Origin: Nitrososphaerota archaeon
GTDB lineage: Archaea > Thermoproteota > Nitrososphaeria > Nitrososphaerales > Nitrosopumilaceae
Length of the DNA stretch: 64,000 nucleotides
Assembly (NCBI GenBank): GCA_026708305.1
Contig: JAPOVD010000006.1
Span: 1 to 64,000, forward strand
Reading direction: 5' to 3'
Shown one piece after another: positions 34,826-43,987 of the stretch (its first letter is position 1; each line of letters starts with the position of its first letter). A program made the position numbers and the translations under genes. The notes beneath the pieces are model-generated. The model worked only from the letters and a program-made list of their open reading frames with translations. It was not told the DNA's origin and did not search any database.

Positions 34826-35950
34826 TTAATTTCTTTTGTCATGCAATCTTTTCAAATGCAATAGACTTTCACATAGAATTGTTATTCCTTTCAAGTACTC
34901 ACTAATAGATATCTTTTCATTCAATGTGTGCGAATCATGTGGGTTTCCTGGACCATATGATATTATAGGTATTTTCGTCTGATTACCAATTATGTTCATA
35001 TCCCCAGTTCCTGTTTTTCTTATTAATATTGGATGTTTATTTTCCACGTTCAATATACCCAAAGTAAAAGCTCGTATTAATAATGAATTATGAGATGTTT
35101 CAAATGGTTCTGTTTCGTCTAATATGGAATAAAATATCTCAGTTTTTCGTTCTTCAGAAACACGCGAAATTAAATTTGCTAATTTTTCTTCAATATGTTT
35201 GCAATTTGTATTTACTGGTATCCTTATGTCTAATGTAACATAACATTCTTTTGGTGTTACATTGTGGCTACTGCCTCCTTTAATTTCAGTGATAGTTGCT
35301 GTTATAATCATACTCTTTTTTTTATCATCTTGGCCGTGTTCTAATAATTCCTTTAGTTTGGATGATGTTATGATCGCTTCTTCTATTGCATTTTTTGATA
35401 GCCATGGTGCACTTGCATGGGCACTATTTTTGACATTGATTCTTAGATTTATTGCTAATCTTCCTTTATATGAAACTGTTATTTGTTTCAATCCACTAGG
35501 CTCTCCAAATATTGCGTAATCAAAATCATGTTTTTGCTTCATAATATTCTTTATTCCTGTAGCGTTACCTTCTTCATCAACTACGCCTATTAAGGTGATA
35601 GTTCCTACATTTTTTTTTATTGATGCGGTAGCTAATAACATAGTAATTAACGAGGTTTTTGCATCTGATGCACCTCTACCAAATAACTTATCCCCGTCTT
35701 TTCTTACTTTTATTTCTCCTGGAACTGTATCCATATGACCACATAATAAAATCTTTGGAGATCCAGAACCTTTTTTAGCTATAATATTACCAACATCATC
35801 AATTTTAATATCATTAAATCCCAAGTTATCGCATTGTTCTGCTAAAAATTCTGCTAACGGTTTTTCTCTTAGTGACGGCGTGTATATCTTTAATGATTTT
35901 TCTAATAATTTGATTGCAAATTGTGAATCTGGAACAGCAAATGAATCCAA
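34826..35950 (-). CDS. lysK: [LysW]-lysine/[LysW]-ornithine hydrolase LysK
   Basis: This M20-family metal amidase releases lysine (or ornithine) from the LysW carrier. The metal sites are visible in LLCGHMDTVPGE, LFGRGASDAKTS and VVDEEGNATG, with a final HDSHTLNEKIS-type region near the C-terminus. The length of 374 residues fits the ArgE/DapE/LysK group. Its place 3 bases after lysX and downstream of homocitrate synthase marks it as the last step of the carrier-bound pathway. One LysK may serve both lysine and arginine synthesis. Confidence 0.9.
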   Translation of the reverse strand: MDSFAVPDSQFAIKLLEKSLKIYTPSLREKPLAEFLAEQCDNLGFNDIKIDDVGNIIAKKGSGSPKILLCGHMDTVPGEIKVRKDGDKLFGRGASDAKTSLITMLLATASIKKNVGTITLIGVVDEEGNATGIKNIMKQKHDFDYAIFGEPSGLKQITVSYKGRLAINLRINVKNSAHASAPWLSKNAIEEAIITSSKLKELLEHGQDDKKKSMIITATITEIKGGSSHNVTPKECYVTLDIRIPVNTNCKHIEEKLANLISRVSEERKTEIFYSILDETEPFETSHNSLLIRAFTLGILNVENKHPILIRKTGTGDMNIIGNQTKIPIISYGPGNPHDSHTLNEKISISEYLKGITILCESLLHLKRLHDKRN

Positions 35951-35953
35951 TTT

Positions 35954-36796
35954 TTACTTTAAGCTTTTTATATAGTTGATAATCATTGTTGGTATATCAA
36001 CATTACATACTTTCACTGTGTTTTTATATTCCGTTGTATTATTTATTTCATGAACCAATAAACCTCTCTCTTGGCTTTCCATTAGATCTATTCCTAATAT
36101 TTGTCCATGTACAGCATCTCTTGCTTTAAAACATAATTTCTCCATTTCGTTAGTAATCTTGCATTCTTCTGCTTTTCCACCTAATGCCATATTTGTTTTC
36201 CAATTTGTATTTCCAGAGTATCTGTATATCGCTGCTACTATGGCATCTCCTACCATTATAGCTCTTATGTCTCTTGGCGGTCTTTTGACAAATTCTTCCA
36301 TATAATGAATTTGGTATATTGGACTCATAGTTTCTCTGTTTTCTATTATTTGTTCTCCAGCTACTTTGTCATTTATTTTTGAAATCATTCTGCCCCAACT
36401 TCCTATAGTTGGTTTTATAATTTGTGGACATCCATATTTTTCTAAAATTTCCATAGCGCTTTCTTTAGAAAATGCAATTGATGCAAATGGTGTTTTCACA
36501 CCATATTTTTTTAATAGCATATGGGTGAATAATTTATTGCCTGCGTAGATAGCAGTATGTAAGCAATTTATTACATTCGCACCTGCACCTTCTAGGGCTG
36601 CTGTAGAATGTAAATTTCTATAATAACTTACACATCTTTGTAAAAAGATACTATTTTCAATTTTTTTATTCAAATCTAACATTAATTTTTTACAATTCAC
36701 CATTTTTATTTTCACATTGTTTTTTTCACATGTTTTTGCAAGAGCTTTTTCTTCCCATCTTATCGTGTCATATAAAACTGTGATTGAATTTGTCAT
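35954..36796 (-). CDS. lysX: LysX, LysW-alpha-aminoadipate ligase (ATP-grasp)
   Basis: LysX ligates the amino group of alpha-aminoadipate to the C-terminal Glu side chain of LysW. The ATP-grasp fold shows QIIKPTIGSWGRMI, KRPPRDIRAIMVGD and the final HEINNTTEYKN metal site. The assignment to the lysine branch rests on position: it overlaps lysW1 (ATGA) and lies below homocitrate synthase. The paralog beside argG is the likely ArgX. The substrate loop differs between the two (NNTTEYKN here, NSTVEFSG there). Confidence 0.85.
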   Translation of the reverse strand: MTNSITVLYDTIRWEEKALAKTCEKNNVKIKMVNCKKLMLDLNKKIENSIFLQRCVSYYRNLHSTAALEGAGANVINCLHTAIYAGNKLFTHMLLKKYGVKTPFASIAFSKESAMEILEKYGCPQIIKPTIGSWGRMISKINDKVAGEQIIENRETMSPIYQIHYMEEFVKRPPRDIRAIMVGDAIVAAIYRYSGNTNWKTNMALGGKAEECKITNEMEKLCFKARDAVHGQILGIDLMESQERGLLVHEINNTTEYKNTVKVCNVDIPTMIINYIKSLK

Positions 36797-36960
36797 TGTC
36801 CCCAGTCCTCACCTACTGATTGTGCAGGTTTTAATTCTAAATTGCCATTATTTTTCATAATTTCAAAACTCGATCCACAATCTTGGCATGTGACTATTTC
36901 ACCTTCTAAAGAATCTTTTGGAATTGTAATGTTAAAATCACATTCTGGACATTGTGTCAT
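36793..36960 (-). CDS. lysW: LysW1, amino-group carrier protein with C-terminal Gln (lysine branch)
   Basis: The 55-residue protein has a zinc ribbon, CPEC and CQDC, and the signature end GEDWG. The last residue is Gln (codon CAA, 36798-36796) followed by TGA, whereas LysW normally ends in Glu, whose side-chain carboxylate is where the substrate is attached. It starts at 36960 and overlaps lysX by ATGA. The second LysW in the window ends in Glu. The gene is shorter than many ORF callers accept. The end residue is directly seen; its meaning is discussed as a finding. Confidence 0.93.
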   Translation of the reverse strand: MTQCPECDFNITIPKDSLEGEIVTCQDCGSSFEIMKNNGNLELKPAQSVGEDWGQ

Positions 36961-36997: not shown

Positions 36998-38152
36998 CTA
37001 GTCTGTATCTAATGGAATTTCTATTAAATCTCCCATTCGTAATTTTTTAAGTGATTGTGCTACGTCTTTTGAAAATTTTGTATTTTTTATACCTAGTACG
37101 GAAAGTAAATATGATGCACCCGTTTTTCCTGATAATTCTCCAAATACAATTCTACGTTTATTTCCGACAGATCTAGGATTTATAATTTCATAAGCGGCTG
37201 GATTTTTTAAAACAGCTGCTAAATGTGTACCAGCTTTATGTTTATATGCTGATGATCCAACTATCGGTTTAGAATCATACGGTATTATTTTTGTATACTG
37301 TTCAATTAATCTTGAAAGATCTACCAACATGTCTAATCTAAAATCATTTTTAATTTTATATATATGTGATATTGCAGTGGCAACTTCTGCTAATGATGGT
37401 ATTCCTGTCCTTTCTCCTATCCCATCTATGGTTGTATGAATTTGATCTGCACCTGCTTTACATGCTGCAAATGAATTTGCTAACGCAAACCCTACATCAT
37501 TATGACAATGAACATCTAATGGTATTTTGATTTCTGATCTTACTTTCTTAACGAAGTTATACATACCTGATGGATGCAATATGCCTACAGTATCTGGAAG
37601 GCTTATTCTATCTACTTTTGAATTTTCTATTGATTTACATAATTTGATTAAAAAATCTGGATTGGCCCTGCTTCCGTCTTCTACCGTGAATCTTATTTTT
37701 AATCCGTGTTTTTTGGCATATTCTACTACATCTATGGATCTCTCCAAAGCCTCTTCTCTTGTGATTCTTAATTTATCATTTAAATGAACATCTGATATTC
37801 CTAAATAAGTAGCAACCCAATTTGAATCACATTTTAATGCTATATCTATATCACTTTTTAAAGCACGTACATGAGCTACTATGTCAGCTTTTAATCCTTG
37901 TTTGATAATTATTTTGGTAGCATCAAAATGATCTGTTGATACTACCGGTGATATTTCTATTTGATCAACACCAAAGTAATCAAGCATCCATGCAATTTGA
38001 ATTCGTTGTTTATTTGTAAAATACACTCCCGGATGTTGTTCTCCTTCTCTTAATGTGCTGTCTAAAATCTTGATATGTTTTATACTGGCTTTGTTATATG
38101 TTTCTGCGTAGTAATTCGGCTCTTTCATGACTAATTTAGGTGATATAGGCAT
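36998..38152 (-). CDS. lysS: Homocitrate synthase
   Basis: The enzyme condenses acetyl-CoA with 2-oxoglutarate, the entry of the alpha-aminoadipate route to lysine. The HMGL-like barrel shows DSTLREGEQHPGVYFT; the RDGEQ position reads REGEQ as in homocitrate synthases. HCHNDVGFALANS and the catalytic YKHKAGTHLAAVL complete it. The length of 384 residues is normal. It heads the lysine-specific section, 38 bases before lysW1. Isopropylmalate synthase is a weaker alternative because of the REGEQ motif and the context. Confidence 0.9.
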   Translation of the reverse strand: MPISPKLVMKEPNYYAETYNKASIKHIKILDSTLREGEQHPGVYFTNKQRIQIAWMLDYFGVDQIEISPVVSTDHFDATKIIIKQGLKADIVAHVRALKSDIDIALKCDSNWVATYLGISDVHLNDKLRITREEALERSIDVVEYAKKHGLKIRFTVEDGSRANPDFLIKLCKSIENSKVDRISLPDTVGILHPSGMYNFVKKVRSEIKIPLDVHCHNDVGFALANSFAACKAGADQIHTTIDGIGERTGIPSLAEVATAISHIYKIKNDFRLDMLVDLSRLIEQYTKIIPYDSKPIVGSSAYKHKAGTHLAAVLKNPAAYEIINPRSVGNKRRIVFGELSGKTGASYLLSVLGIKNTKFSKDVAQSLKKLRMGDLIEIPLDTD

Positions 38153-38208: not shown

Positions 38209-38628
38209 TCACAAGATATTTTTCAGAATGATGACGGTATTTGTATCAGCTATTCCTGAAATTTTTCTTAATTCGTCTATGCAATTATTAATCTCAATTA
38301 TATTTTTTGCGTTTATAATTACTATTATGTCATATTGACCAGTAATCTCATATATTGTTTTTATACTACTAATCTTCATTAATTGAGTAGAGATTTTGGA
38401 TGTATCAGTAGTAGAATGAACACTAATTAAAACCATTGCACTTGTTTTGTTGGATTCTTCTATTTCTATGGTGAACTTTTTTATTACACCTTCTGTAATT
38501 AAACTCTTTACACGTCTTCTTACTGCTGATTCTGATAATTTCAATTTTTTGCCAATATCTACAAATGATTCTCTTGAATCATTTCTTAGTAATGTTAGTA
38601 TATTGTCATCTATTTTGTCTCTGCGCAT
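38209..38628 (-). CDS. Lrp/AsnC-family regulator, LysM-like
   Basis: The winged helix begins RRDKIDDNILTLLRNDSRESF, and the recognition region is LKLSESAVRRRVKSL. The C-terminal half is the RAM ligand-binding domain (YEITGQYDIIVII). The gene sits inside the lysine/arginine block and overlaps lysJ, as does the position of the lysine-responsive LysM in Sulfolobus. It is therefore likely to sense lysine or arginine. I use the ATG at 38628; an in-frame ATG at 38652 would give 147 residues and a longer overlap. Confidence 0.88.
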   Translation of the reverse strand: MRRDKIDDNILTLLRNDSRESFVDIGKKLKLSESAVRRRVKSLITEGVIKKFTIEIEESNKTSAMVLISVHSTTDTSKISTQLMKISSIKTIYEITGQYDIIVIINAKNIIEINNCIDELRKISGIADTNTVIILKNIL

Positions 38629-39796
38629 TTCTACGTTTTTCCTCTCTTGCAAATAAAATATCTAAAATATTTAATATCGATATAACATTATCTTTGTTTA
38701 GAATCAACGGCGGTAATAATCTGATTATGTTTCGTCCTGAATAAAGTAATAATAAACCATGTTTAATACCGTCAAGAATGATCTGTTTTATATCAAATTT
38801 TAATTCTATTCCTATCATTAATCCTTTTCCACGTATTTCTCTAATAATTGTATGACGCATTTTAAGATCTTTTAATCCTGTTAATAATAATTCGCCTTCT
38901 TTCTGTGCATTGCTAATTAAGTTTTCTTCTATTATAGTCTCAATCACTGCATTTCCTGCGGCACAAGACAATGGGTTTCCTCCAAATGTAGAAGAATGTT
39001 CGCCTTTTTTAATACATGATAATATGTCTTGACGAACTAATGTAGCTCCCATTGGCAAACCTCCTGCTATTCCTTTTGCAAGACACATTATATCTGGTAT
39101 TGTATTCCAATGTTCTGCTGCCCACATTTTACCAGTTCTCCCTAATCCTGATTGTATTTCATCAAAAATTAATAATATATTCAATTCATCACATATTTTC
39201 CTTACATTCTCAAGAAATTTATAATTAGGAAGATAAATACCGTTTTCACCTTGTATCGGTTCTATAATTATTGTACCAGTATTATCATTAATTAAAGATT
39301 GTAATGATTCTATATCATTAAACTTTGCGAATGATACATCTTTTAATAATGGTTTAAAAGATAATCTATATTTAGAACTATGAGTTATTGATAATGCACC
39401 TATGGTTTTACCATGATATGCACCTGTCATTGATATTATACCTGTTTTCTTACTGAATTTCCTTGCGAATTTTATAGCAGCTTCCACTGATTCTGATCCA
39501 CTATTACTCAAATAAACATTGGATAGTTTTTTTGGAGATATTTTGACAATATTCTCCAAAAATTTTTCTCGTGTTTTATTATATAAAGAGCTATGTACTG
39601 TAATTATTTTAGTTAATTGTTCAGTTATTGAATTTAGTAACCTTTTATTTGAATGACCAATAAGAGCTACTCCATACCCTCCAATACAATCTATGTATTT
39701 TTTACCATTTGTATCCACCACATTAATACCGTTTCCTTTTTCTATTGTTATCGGAAATTTTTGATATAAAGTTCCGGAAAATCTATCTTCATTCAT
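38606..39796 (-). CDS. lysJ: [LysW]-aminoadipate semialdehyde/glutamate semialdehyde transaminase LysJ
   Basis: This class III PLP aminotransferase makes carrier-bound lysine or ornithine. YIDCIGGYGVALIGHSN, the GAYHGKTIGALS loop and LLIFDEIQSGLGRTGKM are present, with the PLP lysine in MCLAKGIAGGLPMG. The length of 396 residues fits ArgD/LysJ. It overlaps lysZ by 4 bases. With a single copy in the window it probably acts in both the lysine and arginine branches. Confidence 0.93.
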   Translation of the reverse strand: MNEDRFSGTLYQKFPITIEKGNGINVVDTNGKKYIDCIGGYGVALIGHSNKRLLNSITEQLTKIITVHSSLYNKTREKFLENIVKISPKKLSNVYLSNSGSESVEAAIKFARKFSKKTGIISMTGAYHGKTIGALSITHSSKYRLSFKPLLKDVSFAKFNDIESLQSLINDNTGTIIIEPIQGENGIYLPNYKFLENVRKICDELNILLIFDEIQSGLGRTGKMWAAEHWNTIPDIMCLAKGIAGGLPMGATLVRQDILSCIKKGEHSSTFGGNPLSCAAGNAVIETIIEENLISNAQKEGELLLTGLKDLKMRHTIIREIRGKGLMIGIELKFDIKQIILDGIKHGLLLLYSGRNIIRLLPPLILNKDNVISILNILDILFAREEKRRNAQRQNR

Positions 39797-40593
39797 TTAT
39801 AAATCTCCGTACATTCATTATGATCTAAAGCTGACATTATTGGATTCTTCTTTTTACCATTAGAAATTATGATCTTATTTACTCCCATTTCTAAAGCCTC
39901 TATGCTTGCTAAGATTTTTTTTTCCATACCGGGGCCTATTCTGTTTCTGAGTTTATTAGCTTGTTCATAATCGAGATTTTTAACAAGTTTACCATCCATA
40001 AATAAACCATTTACATTAGTTAAAAAAATTAATTTATCCATTTTTAAACTACCTGCTATGTTGGCTGCAGCTCTATCTCCATCCACATTTAAGAATTCAA
40101 ATTCTTCGCTAATTGCAATAGGTGCAATTACAGGAACATATCCGTTTTTTAATAACAATGTTAATATTGATCTATTAATTTGTTTGATTTTTCCAGTATA
40201 CCCCCCATCTACAACTTGTTTACGACCATGTTCGTTGATGATCATTAATTTTTTTTTTCTATTTGCTTGAATGAGGTTGCCATCTATTCCTGATATTCCA
40301 AAAGCATTAATATTATTTTTTTGAAATGATTTAGTAATCGTCTTGTTTATTTTACCTGCCATTATCATAGTGAAAATCTGTATTGTTTCTTTATCTGTAT
40401 ATCTACTTTTTATCCCGCTCGGTGATATTAAAAATTTTGGAACTTTGCCCATTATTTCACAAACTTTAGTAATTTCTTTTCCACCTCCGTGCACAATAAC
40501 AATCTGATCGTCTTTTACCATATTTTTAATGTCGTCCATGATACTTTCATGTAAATCATCAAATACGCTACCACCTATTTTTATGGTGATCAT
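39793..40593 (-). CDS. lysZ: [LysW]-aminoadipate/glutamate kinase LysZ
   Basis: The amino-acid kinase phosphorylates the carrier-bound acid. It begins ITIKIGGSVFDDL, has VIVHGGGKEITKVCE and the ATP region MDKLIFLTNVNGLF. At 266 residues it has ArgB/LysZ length. It lies 1 base after lysY and overlaps lysJ by 4, so the three central steps are tightly coupled. Confidence 0.93.
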   Translation of the reverse strand: MITIKIGGSVFDDLHESIMDDIKNMVKDDQIVIVHGGGKEITKVCEIMGKVPKFLISPSGIKSRYTDKETIQIFTMIMAGKINKTITKSFQKNNINAFGISGIDGNLIQANRKKKLMIINEHGRKQVVDGGYTGKIKQINRSILTLLLKNGYVPVIAPIAISEEFEFLNVDGDRAAANIAGSLKMDKLIFLTNVNGLFMDGKLVKNLDYEQANKLRNRIGPGMEKKILASIEALEMGVNKIIISNGKKKNPIMSALDHNECTEIYK

Positions 40594-40594
40594 T

Positions 40595-41647
40595 TTATAC
40601 TGGTGTTAGTGGAGAATACGAAATTCCATCTGCTTCGTCAAAATTTAACATTATGTTCATATTTTGTATAGCTGAACCAGCAGCACCTTTCATTAGATTA
40701 TCTGACGCAGATAAAGCAACACATCTATTATTATCATAATCTATGTCAAATCCTATGTCACAGAAATTAGATCCTACTACAAATTTTGGATCTGGATATT
40801 TATAGAAACCGCTCTTATCTCTAATCAATCTTATAAATTTTTCATTTTGAAATTCATTTCTGTATATTTTCCATAAATCTTTTTCAATTATGTCTTTTAT
40901 TAAGAAAGTATGGTTTGTACAAAGTATACCCCTGACAATGTCTACTGCATGTGGACTCATAGAAACATTAATGTTAGTATTAGCTATCTCACTAAGTTCC
41001 TGTTGTATCTCTCCAGTATGTCTGTGATTTGCAGGCTTGTATGGTCTTATCACACCAGCTCGCATTGCATGTTGTGTGGATAGAACTACATTTGTACCAG
41101 CTCCTGAAGAACCTATTTTAGAATCTATGACTATATGTTCTTTATCTATTATATTATTCTTAATTAATGGATACAATGCAAGTATAGAAGTCACAGCCAT
41201 GCAACCTGGACATGATACCAAATTCGCATTCCTAATTTCTTTTCTATGTATCTCTGGAATTCCAAAAATTGACTTCGATAAATATTCTGGATAGGGATGC
41301 TTAAATTTATACCATTTTTCATAAGCCTCAGGATTATGCAATCTGTAATCTGCACTTAAATCAATTATCTTTATGCCTAAATCATGCAAGTTTTTTACTA
41401 TCTCTACAGAGGTTCCGTGTGGTACTGCAGTAAACACTAAATCGCATTTGTCTGATATCTCATTATAATCTAATTTAGAGAATATAAGATCTGTAAAACC
41501 TTTTAAGCTTGGATGTATTCTGTGTAAATAATTTCCTACATGCTGTCTTGATGTAACAACATTCACATCTACTTTTGGATGACTTAATAATAACCGTATT
41601 ATCTCTCCTCCTACATATCCAGAAGCTCCTATTACGCCAATTCTCAT
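40595..41647 (-). CDS. lysY: [LysW]-aminoadipyl/glutamyl phosphate reductase LysY
   Basis: The reductase forms the carrier-bound semialdehyde with NADPH. The dinucleotide loop is IGVIGASGYVGGEI and the catalytic Cys is in LVSCPGCMAVTSIL. The conserved IGSSGAGTNV and HRHTGEIQQEL regions follow. The length of 350 residues matches ArgC/LysY. It lies 28 bases after argX. Confidence 0.94.
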   Translation of the reverse strand: MRIGVIGASGYVGGEIIRLLLSHPKVDVNVVTSRQHVGNYLHRIHPSLKGFTDLIFSKLDYNEISDKCDLVFTAVPHGTSVEIVKNLHDLGIKIIDLSADYRLHNPEAYEKWYKFKHPYPEYLSKSIFGIPEIHRKEIRNANLVSCPGCMAVTSILALYPLIKNNIIDKEHIVIDSKIGSSGAGTNVVLSTQHAMRAGVIRPYKPANHRHTGEIQQELSEIANTNINVSMSPHAVDIVRGILCTNHTFLIKDIIEKDLWKIYRNEFQNEKFIRLIRDKSGFYKYPDPKFVVGSNFCDIGFDIDYDNNRCVALSASDNLMKGAAGSAIQNMNIMLNFDEADGISYSPLTPV

Positions 41648-41675: not shown

Positions 41676-42530
41676 TTATTTCCTCGCGAAATCTAATGCA
41701 AATTGGATTATTTCTCTTGGTATGTTTGTTTTTGTTACTTGCATTAATCCTGAAAACTCTACTGTGCTGTTTATTTCATGTACTACCAAACCATCTTTTT
41801 CATCCTCCATTATATCAATTCCTAATATGCTGTTTTTCATACTCATAGATATTTTCATACATATTTCTTCTATATCTTTAGTAATATCACAAACTATTGG
41901 TAATGCACCACATGCAATATTTGTTTTAAAATTATCTGAAGATTTCCTATACATAGCAGCTAAGATCCGTTCTCCTACCATAATAACACGAATGTCTCTA
42001 GGTGGACGTTTTATGAATTCTTGAAAATAATATAATCTATCAAATGGCCCATTATTAATTTCTCTAATTTCTAATATTGCTTCTGCAGAATCTTTATCTT
42101 TTAATAATGCTATTCCTCTTCCCCAACTTCCTATTATGGGTTTTATAACTAGAGGATATCCTATTTTTTCTATGTTTGAGATTGCTGAGTCATGAGAAAA
42201 AGCAAAATACGTTTTAGGAGTCGATATGTTATATTTTTTTAAAAATAATGTGGTAAGTAATTTATTTCCACATACGTTCATGACATCATACTTATTTATA
42301 ATCGGCATGTGCAAAAATTCTAAACAAGCAGTAAAATGTAATCCTCTTAAATAACTTATGCATCTTCCTATCGCTACATTTCCAAAATAATATTGGTTTA
42401 CTGAATTTGGATCGATTTGAATGTTTTTCACATCTTTCATTATGATGTTGTGACCCATGCGAATTCCTTCTGACTTCAATAACTTTTCTTCTTTTCTTAT
42501 TCGATCAAACACGATACATACATCTGACAA
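41676..42530 (-). CDS. argX: ArgX, LysW-glutamate ligase (ATP-grasp)
   Basis: This is the second LysX-type ligase in the window. The ATP-grasp core reads LVIKPIIGSWGRGIA, KRPPRDIRVIMVGE and VHEINSTVEFSG. It directly follows lysW2 (TTG start immediately after the TAA stop) and lies below argG, so it most likely ligates glutamate for arginine synthesis, while the paralog beside homocitrate synthase serves lysine. The assignment is by context; I cannot read substrate choice with certainty from the residues. Confidence 0.82.
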   Translation of the reverse strand: MSDVCIVFDRIRKEEKLLKSEGIRMGHNIIMKDVKNIQIDPNSVNQYYFGNVAIGRCISYLRGLHFTACLEFLHMPIINKYDVMNVCGNKLLTTLFLKKYNISTPKTYFAFSHDSAISNIEKIGYPLVIKPIIGSWGRGIALLKDKDSAEAILEIREINNGPFDRLYYFQEFIKRPPRDIRVIMVGERILAAMYRKSSDNFKTNIACGALPIVCDITKDIEEICMKISMSMKNSILGIDIMEDEKDGLVVHEINSTVEFSGLMQVTKTNIPREIIQFALDFARK

Positions 42531-42698
42531 TTATTCGCCCCAATCTTCACCTACATTTTCTGCTCGTTTTACTTCTATATGACCTTCGTCATTTTTTGAA
42601 ATCTCAAATTCAGAACCACAATCTGAACATGAAATTATTTCTCCTTCTACTGCATCATTTGGAATCTTTAATACAGCATCACATTCTGGACAATTCAT
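42531..42698 (-). CDS. lysW: LysW2, amino-group carrier protein with canonical C-terminal Glu (arginine branch)
   Basis: The 55-residue protein has the zinc ribbon CPEC and CSDC and ends GEDWGE, with the Glu that receives the substrate. It is slightly over half identical to LysW1 by eye. It begins at 42698, 9 bases after argG, and its stop abuts the argX start. Its acidic surface and carrier role are known for the family. Confidence 0.95.
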   Translation of the reverse strand: MNCPECDAVLKIPNDAVEGEIISCSDCGSEFEISKNDEGHIEVKRAENVGEDWGE

Positions 42699-42707
42699 TG
42701 TTTCAAT

Positions 42708-43895
42708 TTACACATTTTTTTGTAATTTATTAGCTTCTGTTGTTTGCATTCCCCATAATTTTATGAATCCCAAAGACATAGTCTGATCAAAAACAGAATT
42801 GTCTCCATAAGTAATCATATCTTTGTTATACAATGAATTTTCGCATTTCCTACCTACGACGCGTAAATTGCCTTTGTACATTTTTATTTTAACCAACCCG
42901 GTAACATTTCTTTGTGTGGAATTTATAAACATATCTAAATCTTTACGTAATGGATCATTCCATAATCCTGAATATACTAATCTTGACCATTCTTCATCTA
43001 CTGCTGATTTAAATCTGATTTCATGACTAGTTTGTACCATTTTTTCAAGATCAAAATGTGCATCAATTAAACATACAGCAGCAGGATTTTCATATATTTC
43101 ACGTGACTTCATTCCTATAATCCTATCTTCTATGTGATCTACTATTCCTATTCCATGACTTCCTGCCTTCTCATTAATATATTCGATCAATTGAATTGGT
43201 TCATTTCTAAATTGATTGTTAACAGATACTGGAATACCATTTTCAAATTCTATTTCTATATACGTAGGCCTGTCCGGAAAACATTTTGTAACCCATGAAA
43301 ATACTTCATCTCCGGGTTCATTATACGGATCTTCCAAAGACCCTCCTTCTATTGATCTTCCCCATAAGTTTTGATCGATACTGAATTTCTTAGCAATTTT
43401 TTCAATCTCAACGCCATGTTTTTTTGCAAAATCTATTTCTTTTTCTCTATTTAAATTCAAATCTCGTATTGGAGCTATTATGGACAAACTTGATTCTGAT
43501 TGCAATGCTATGTCGAATCTAACTTGATCATTTCCTTTACCAGAGCAACCATGTGCTACAAAATTAGCATTTTCTTTTTTTGCTATATTTGTTAATTTAT
43601 TTGCTATTAGTGGACGCGCTAATGCAGTTGCCAAACAATATTTTTTTTGATACAACGAATTAGCTTTTATTGATGGAAAAATGAAATTTTTAACAAATTC
43701 TTCTTTACAATTTATTGTATAATGATTTTTCACACCAAGGCTAATAGCTTTTGCTTTAATTTTTTCATAATTTTCATTTTGTCCAACATCTATAGTCACA
43801 GTTATGACATCTAAGTTATATTTTTCTTGTAAATATTTTACAACAACTGTTGTATCCAAACCCCCAGAAAATGCAACAACTGCTTTATCTACCAA
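42708..43895 (-). CDS. argG: Argininosuccinate synthase
   Basis: ArgG joins citrulline and aspartate with ATP in arginine synthesis. The PP-loop AFSGGLDTTVVV is at the N-terminus; the core has HGCSGKGNDQVRFDIAL and WGRSIEGGSLEDP. I use the TTG start at 43895 (MVDKAVVAFSGG); the frame extends to 43949, but those extra 18 residues are hydrophobic and unlike the family. It starts the arginine/lysine block. No argininosuccinate lyase lies in the window. Confidence 0.94.
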   Translation of the reverse strand: MVDKAVVAFSGGLDTTVVVKYLQEKYNLDVITVTIDVGQNENYEKIKAKAISLGVKNHYTINCKEEFVKNFIFPSIKANSLYQKKYCLATALARPLIANKLTNIAKKENANFVAHGCSGKGNDQVRFDIALQSESSLSIIAPIRDLNLNREKEIDFAKKHGVEIEKIAKKFSIDQNLWGRSIEGGSLEDPYNEPGDEVFSWVTKCFPDRPTYIEIEFENGIPVSVNNQFRNEPIQLIEYINEKAGSHGIGIVDHIEDRIIGMKSREIYENPAAVCLIDAHFDLEKMVQTSHEIRFKSAVDEEWSRLVYSGLWNDPLRKDLDMFINSTQRNVTGLVKIKMYKGNLRVVGRKCENSLYNKDMITYGDNSVFDQTMSLGFIKLWGMQTTEANKLQKNV

Positions 43896-43987
43896 ATCAA
43901 TAATCAAAGTGTAATACGAATTTATGAATATATTGATTTTTATGAACAATCAAATAATTATTTAACTTGTTATTGCTTCATTTATTT

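Follow-up and report, generated by a model that had tools for sequence, protein, structure and literature searches.

LysW and ArgW, the amino-group carrier proteins described from Thermus, Sulfolobus, Thermococcus and Natrinema (NF041070, TIGR01206), have zinc-ribbon cysteines, an acidic body and a GEDWG tail, and are encoded in a W-X gene order next to LysZ/Y/J/K, with a partner ligase that carries a GSWGR motif. In the characterised systems, the amino group of the substrate is joined to the γ-carboxyl of the C-terminal Glu of LysW, the GSWGR motif of the ligase reads the EDWGE tail, and signatures separate ligases for aminoadipate (Asn-Thr, LysX) from ArgX (Gly) (PMC10433800). The terminal Glu is treated as the defining functional residue of these carriers, and the papers found on them describe Glu only (PMC10433800). 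We found no earlier report of a Gln-ended LysW in the open literature, subscription papers lying outside the search, and where LysW pathways are assigned in a genome-scale model of N. maritimus, the passages concerned make no comment on the terminal residue (PMC6038301). A comparable case is the Pup system of actinobacteria (PupQ, Dop and PafA), where ATP-driven isopeptide ligation requires a Glu side chain at the end of a small protein whose encoded C-terminal residue is Gln; Dop deamidates PupQ to PupE and also depupylates, so that one enzyme removes both amide and conjugate (PMC8599861). LysW and Pup are unrelated proteins, the former carrying a metabolite whereas the latter is a protein tag.

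The window analysed here, a 64,000-nucleotide stretch of DNA from a member of the Nitrosopumilaceae, holds a lysine and arginine cluster on its minus strand. Open reading frames and profile matches give the gene order argG-lysW2-argX-lysY-lysZ-lysJ-lysM-HCS-lysW1-lysX1-lysK, with the following features:

34826..35950, minus strand: LysK, M20-type [LysW]-lysine/ornithine hydrolase and candidate LysW1 deamidase (TIGR01902, 268 bits; motif check)
35954..36796, minus strand: LysX1, lysine-branch ATP-grasp ligase, GSWGR kept, signature NNTTEYKNT (Asn-Thr, aminoadipate type) (TIGR02144)
36793..36960, minus strand: LysW1, lysine-branch amino-group carrier protein, 55 aa, C-terminus GEDWGQ (NF041070, 88.9 bits)
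36796..36798, minus strand: C-terminal Gln codon CAA of LysW1, at the position of the canonical attachment Glu (sequence; matched stretch GGTGAGGACTGGGGACAATGA)
36998..38152, minus strand: homocitrate synthase-like protein (HCS) of the aminoadipate pathway (TIGR02146, 375.5 bits, under the cut-off of 413.55; cluster position)
38209..38652, minus strand: LysM-type Lrp regulator (NF040947, over cut-off)
38606..39796, minus strand: LysJ/ArgD transaminase, single copy in the cluster (family model match)
39793..40593, minus strand: LysZ [LysW]-aminoadipate/glutamate kinase, single copy in the cluster (NF010662, over cut-off)
40595..41647, minus strand: LysY/ArgC reductase, single copy in the cluster (family model match)
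41676..42530, minus strand: ArgX (LysX2), arginine-branch ligase, signature NSTVEFSGL (Gly type) (family model match, signature)
42531..42698, minus strand: LysW2 (ArgW), C-terminus GEDWGE (NF041070, 81.5 bits)
42708..43949, minus strand: ArgG, argininosuccinate synthase (open reading frame; identity from the initial annotation and conserved place)

Both carriers score above the 75-bit cut-off of NF041070, the archaeal LysW/ArgW family, and they are the only LysW genes found in the 837-kb assembly. LysW1 keeps the zinc-ribbon cysteines (CPEC ... CQDC) and the GEDWG tail, which are conserved across relatives, and in this cluster and its relatives it is partnered with LysX, LysZ, LysY, LysJ and LysK. 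LysX1 has both IGSWGR and the Asn-Thr specificity signature, the M20-type motifs of LysK are intact, and the match of HCS to the homocitrate synthase model is strong, though under the curated value. What sets LysW1 apart from described carriers is its end, SVGEDWGQ, which lacks the canonical terminal Glu whose γ-carboxyl takes the substrate and has Gln encoded in its place (CAA, followed by a TGA stop at 36793-36795 that overlaps the lysX1 start as ATGA). The last codon of LysW2 is GAA (Glu), so that the two differing carrier ends described in the initial annotation are confirmed. LysW1 is thus a LysW homologue, not a canonical LysW, that most likely works as LysW, and its mature form could carry Glu after deamidation.

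The initial annotation had allowed for a single-base error as the cause, which can be excluded. LysW1 ends in Gln in both other genomes of the source genus, in a synonymous context (GGC CAA TGA and GGT CAA TGA), and the residue is fixed across the family with two synonymous codons. A pattern scan found a Gln-ended carrier in 219 of 250 Nitrosopumilaceae genomes, representing all 22 genera (22/22), and in 126 of the 131 of good quality; the reversed pattern, used as a control, gave 0 matches in the same rows. At the named loci, leaving out three chance reads ending in TGG, the Gln codon is CAG in 100 cases and CAA in 16. Since CAA and CAG both encode Gln, it is the amino acid that is conserved and not the codon. 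One could still suppose that a constraint on the DNA sequence itself preserves the codon, for instance the overlap of last codon and stop with the lysX1 start (CA[A/G]TGA) seen in Nitrosopumilaceae. GAGTGA gives the same overlap, however, and is used by genomes that have reverted to Glu and by family f3; Gln is likewise encoded at loci without an overlap and before TAA or TAG stops, and both of its codons are in use. These cases refute the supposition, to which we give next to no credence.

Within the Nitrosopumilaceae, the glutamine follows the lysine branch. With ArgG as the anchor for the arginine side when reading relatives' loci, the Gln-ended carrier adjoins HCS, lysX or lysK in 26 representative genomes besides the window, and the argX-linked carrier, where also read in those genomes, ends in Glu. 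The same neighbours flank the Gln-ended carrier at every locus read in the family, save two orphan copies in genus g15, where two genomes each have such an additional Gln-ended gene. Orphan LysW copies that stand without an adjacent ligase gene occur in several Nitrosopumilaceae (L177, L244, L295, L296 and L313), those of G016 and G033 being Gln-ended and the others Glu-ended. The question whether the copy next to HCS always ends in Gln is answered positively for the family, apart from five genomes with Glu in the lysX-linked carrier (the clade of G152, G186, G187 and G208, plus G200) and one loss, in which lysW1 is gone from the lysine locus while lysX1 and HCS remain and a Glu-ended argW is the only carrier left (G024, locus L178). 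The five Glu genomes represent two natural reversions, and a LysX tree of Nitrosopumilaceae and family f3 needs three changes of carrier state in all.

Outside the family, neither that regularity nor a general tie of Gln to the lysine branch holds. In Nitrososphaeraceae, Gln may sit on either carrier or on both at once, and every lysine/arginine combination with at least one Gln occurs: Gln on both (for example g46, including the closed two-carrier genomes G314 and G297), Glu on the lysine carrier and Gln on the arginine carrier (g45 and g49), the converse of this (g50), and a lone carrier that ends in Gln (g29 and g52). These combinations reject a fixed rule of Gln for lysine and Glu for arginine beyond the Nitrosopumilaceae. 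In g52 (L166, L168 and L222), argX and argW are both absent between argG and lysY, and the single Gln-ended LysW is left. In the Nitrosocaldus-type family, g23 pairs a lysine-side Gln with an arginine-side Glu and g53 has Glu on both, and every carrier read in the order's remaining families ends in Glu. Across a sample of the order, the lysine-side state requires five changes on the LysX tree, which midpoint rooting resolves as three gains (in Nitrosopumilaceae, Nitrososphaeraceae and the Nitrosocaldus-type family) and two reversions within Nitrososphaeraceae; for the arginine carrier there is a single gain and a single reversion, both in Nitrososphaeraceae.

Genomes with a single Gln-ended carrier bear on whether such a protein can work at all. 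A sensitive search found exactly one LysW, Gln-ended, in each of 12 g29 genomes (Nitrosocosmicus type). Eight of the clusters were read, one of them cut by a contig end. In each, this sole carrier is accompanied by lysX, lysK and as many of the lysZYJ genes as the stretch read takes in, and all seven clusters that extend to the argX side contain that gene. At loci L157, L158, L190, L196, L197, L199 and L200 of this genus, argW has been lost and argX retained, so both ligases must depend on one Gln-ended LysW. One of the genomes (G043) is closed in one contig of 2,836,447 bases and putatively belongs to 'Ca. Nitrosocosmicus franklandus' C13, which was isolated and grown with ammonium in an inorganic freshwater medium (PMC6776761). 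Judged from gene content, then, the Gln-ended carrier must be functional in Gln-only lineages, since it is the sole carrier type there, including, putatively, in an isolate grown in inorganic medium.

This decides against an option raised in the initial annotation, in which LysW1 is a decoy and the Glu-ended LysW2 serves both branches, and against variants of it with LysW1 as a regulator or remnant. Such sharing has a precedent in Sulfolobus, where one LysW serves both branches (PMC10433800), and the genome without lysW1 has the Glu carrier only. The option fails in the face of whole lineages with Gln-ended carriers only: it is refuted for these by the 12 single-carrier g29 genomes, and other genera have Gln on both carriers. 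The rest of LysW1 is also conserved, including GEDWG and the zinc cysteines, and overall we regard a decoy, regulator or remnant as highly improbable.

The partner ligases appear indifferent to the change. GSWGR is intact in 88 of 88 LysX and 85 of 85 ArgX sequences, whatever the terminus of the carrier, and a co-change count (used in place of an independent-pairs test, which had too few changes for power) found no ligase column that tracks the Gln/Glu state. The revertant clade has a LysX1 that shares 88-89% identity with the nearest LysX1 with a Gln partner, and no informative revertant-specific residue was found in it, the sole clade-specific column being alignment position 1, at an uncertain start. 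LysX residue 34 is D with a Gln carrier and N with a Glu carrier at 91% tip agreement; as a compensating change it was rejected, given that the window has N34 and the Glu revertants keep D34.

An unchanged ligase has to be weighed against the possibility that the amide is never removed, with LysX1 joining aminoadipate to the free α-carboxylate of the C-terminal Gln and the downstream enzymes accepting an α-linked carrier. LysX1 is itself a RimK-family ATP-grasp enzyme (TIGR00768 match), and its relatives RimK, CofF and MptN make α-linkages on C-terminal acceptors, whereas LysX uses the γ-carboxyl of a terminal Glu; an extra enzyme would be unnecessary. We nevertheless hold this linkage to be distinctly unlikely, because the ligase remains the same with Gln or after reversal to Glu, because each natural reversion would switch the linkage, and because one LysZ/Y/J/K set would have to handle γ-linked ArgW-Glu and α-linked LysW-Gln in the same cell.

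The comparative evidence shows that the glutamine is genuine and conserved, with selection acting on the amino acid, that it marks the sole carrier type in several lineages, and that the ligases are unchanged with it. The window has one LysZ/LysY/LysJ/LysK set for both the Gln carrier (LysW1) and the Glu carrier (LysW2), which is simplest if the two become chemically the same. LysW1 is probably the working carrier of the lysine branch: translation would yield an inactive protein ending in Gln, and deamidation of this residue to Glu would then mature it. In this proposed route, deamidation would precede ligation, LysX1 would then ligate aminoadipate to the new γ-carboxylate, and the shared LysZ-LysY-LysJ-LysK set would proceed as usual on the matured carrier. 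Deamidation would probably be needed once per carrier molecule and not in each cycle, because release by LysK regenerates the Glu end. We infer that deamidation itself takes place: the conservation of Gln, the Gln-only lineages and the unchanged ligases are best accounted for by the suggestion of the initial annotation that LysW1, like Pup, undergoes deamidation before ligation. Points against it are the negative searches for a Dop homologue and for an adjacent amidase gene, described below, and also the distribution of the residue. Cost-free deamidation predicts drift between Gln and Glu, whereas within clades one or the other is almost fixed. The proposed route therefore leaves out some advantage of Gln, which could possibly lie in a later activation or in regulation through ammonia or through carrier synthesis.

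The amide could instead be lost by transamidation, in which the amino group of aminoadipate or glutamate replaces it in round one with loss of ammonia, later rounds using the regenerated Glu with LysX and ATP. The end point would be chemically equivalent, and LysX would be expected to stay unchanged. At the loci inspected, however, no transglutaminase-like gene was seen beside the carriers, and LysK is unlikely to run in reverse in an ammonia-rich cell, which makes such an exchange quite improbable. More generally, it seems unlikely that the terminal Gln itself is the acceptor, which would mean a second carrier chemistry, by α-carboxylate ligation or direct transamidation, beside the γ-glutamyl one, with one downstream set accepting both.

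For the proposed deamidation of LysW1, LysK is the leading candidate enzyme, a tentative assignment that we consider possible, though short of probable. LysK hydrolyses the γ-glutamyl amide at the terminal residue of LysW, and LysW-Gln corresponds to its normal substrate, LysW-Glu-γ-Lys, with ammonia as the leaving group; such a double role would resemble that of Dop, which acts on PupQ and on pupylated protein. LysK is also present in Glu-only lineages, so its presence does not discriminate between Gln and Glu lineages, and the LysK comparison gave no convincing residue that cleanly marks the former. The analogy with Dop drawn in the initial annotation holds for the functional logic and does not extend to homology: a Pup ligase/Dop homologue (PF03136) was found in 0 of 21 genomes, while the positive control matched in Corynebacterium glutamicum. 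Nor was a recurring amidase gene evident beside Gln carriers among the open reading frames of four loci outside the order.

Nearly all ammonia-oxidising archaea thus encode a Gln-ended carrier, and their synthesis of lysine, of arginine or of both runs on carriers whose genes lack the terminal Glu codon. Gln-ended carriers imply that a core pathway contains either a maturation step that has gone unrecognised or a second chemistry of attachment, and possibly that amino-acid synthesis can be controlled at this point in cells that handle much ammonia. Deamidation of LysW, if true, would give the Pup logic, in which Gln is encoded, deamidated and then ligated, a second example in unrelated proteins. 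The natural Gln/Glu revertants are matched controls.

Gln-ended carriers are also found outside the order, next to a LysX homologue, in families f25, f30, f48 and f51, by which a restriction to ammonia oxidisers is rejected; in other parts of the phylum, too, single carriers can end in Gln. Four matches are not LysW: L061 (Chloroflexi), L074 (Streptacidiphilus) and L126, which are chance pattern reads that end in EDWGQW, and L272 in f24. In f25 (L290-L293), each single cluster has one Gln-ended carrier with two LysX-type ligase genes. In one f48 genome (G464, locus L294), a Gln-ended LysW and a LysX-like ligase have a thiolase gene adjacent and no other lysine or arginine carrier genes nearby, and this system perhaps makes a different product.
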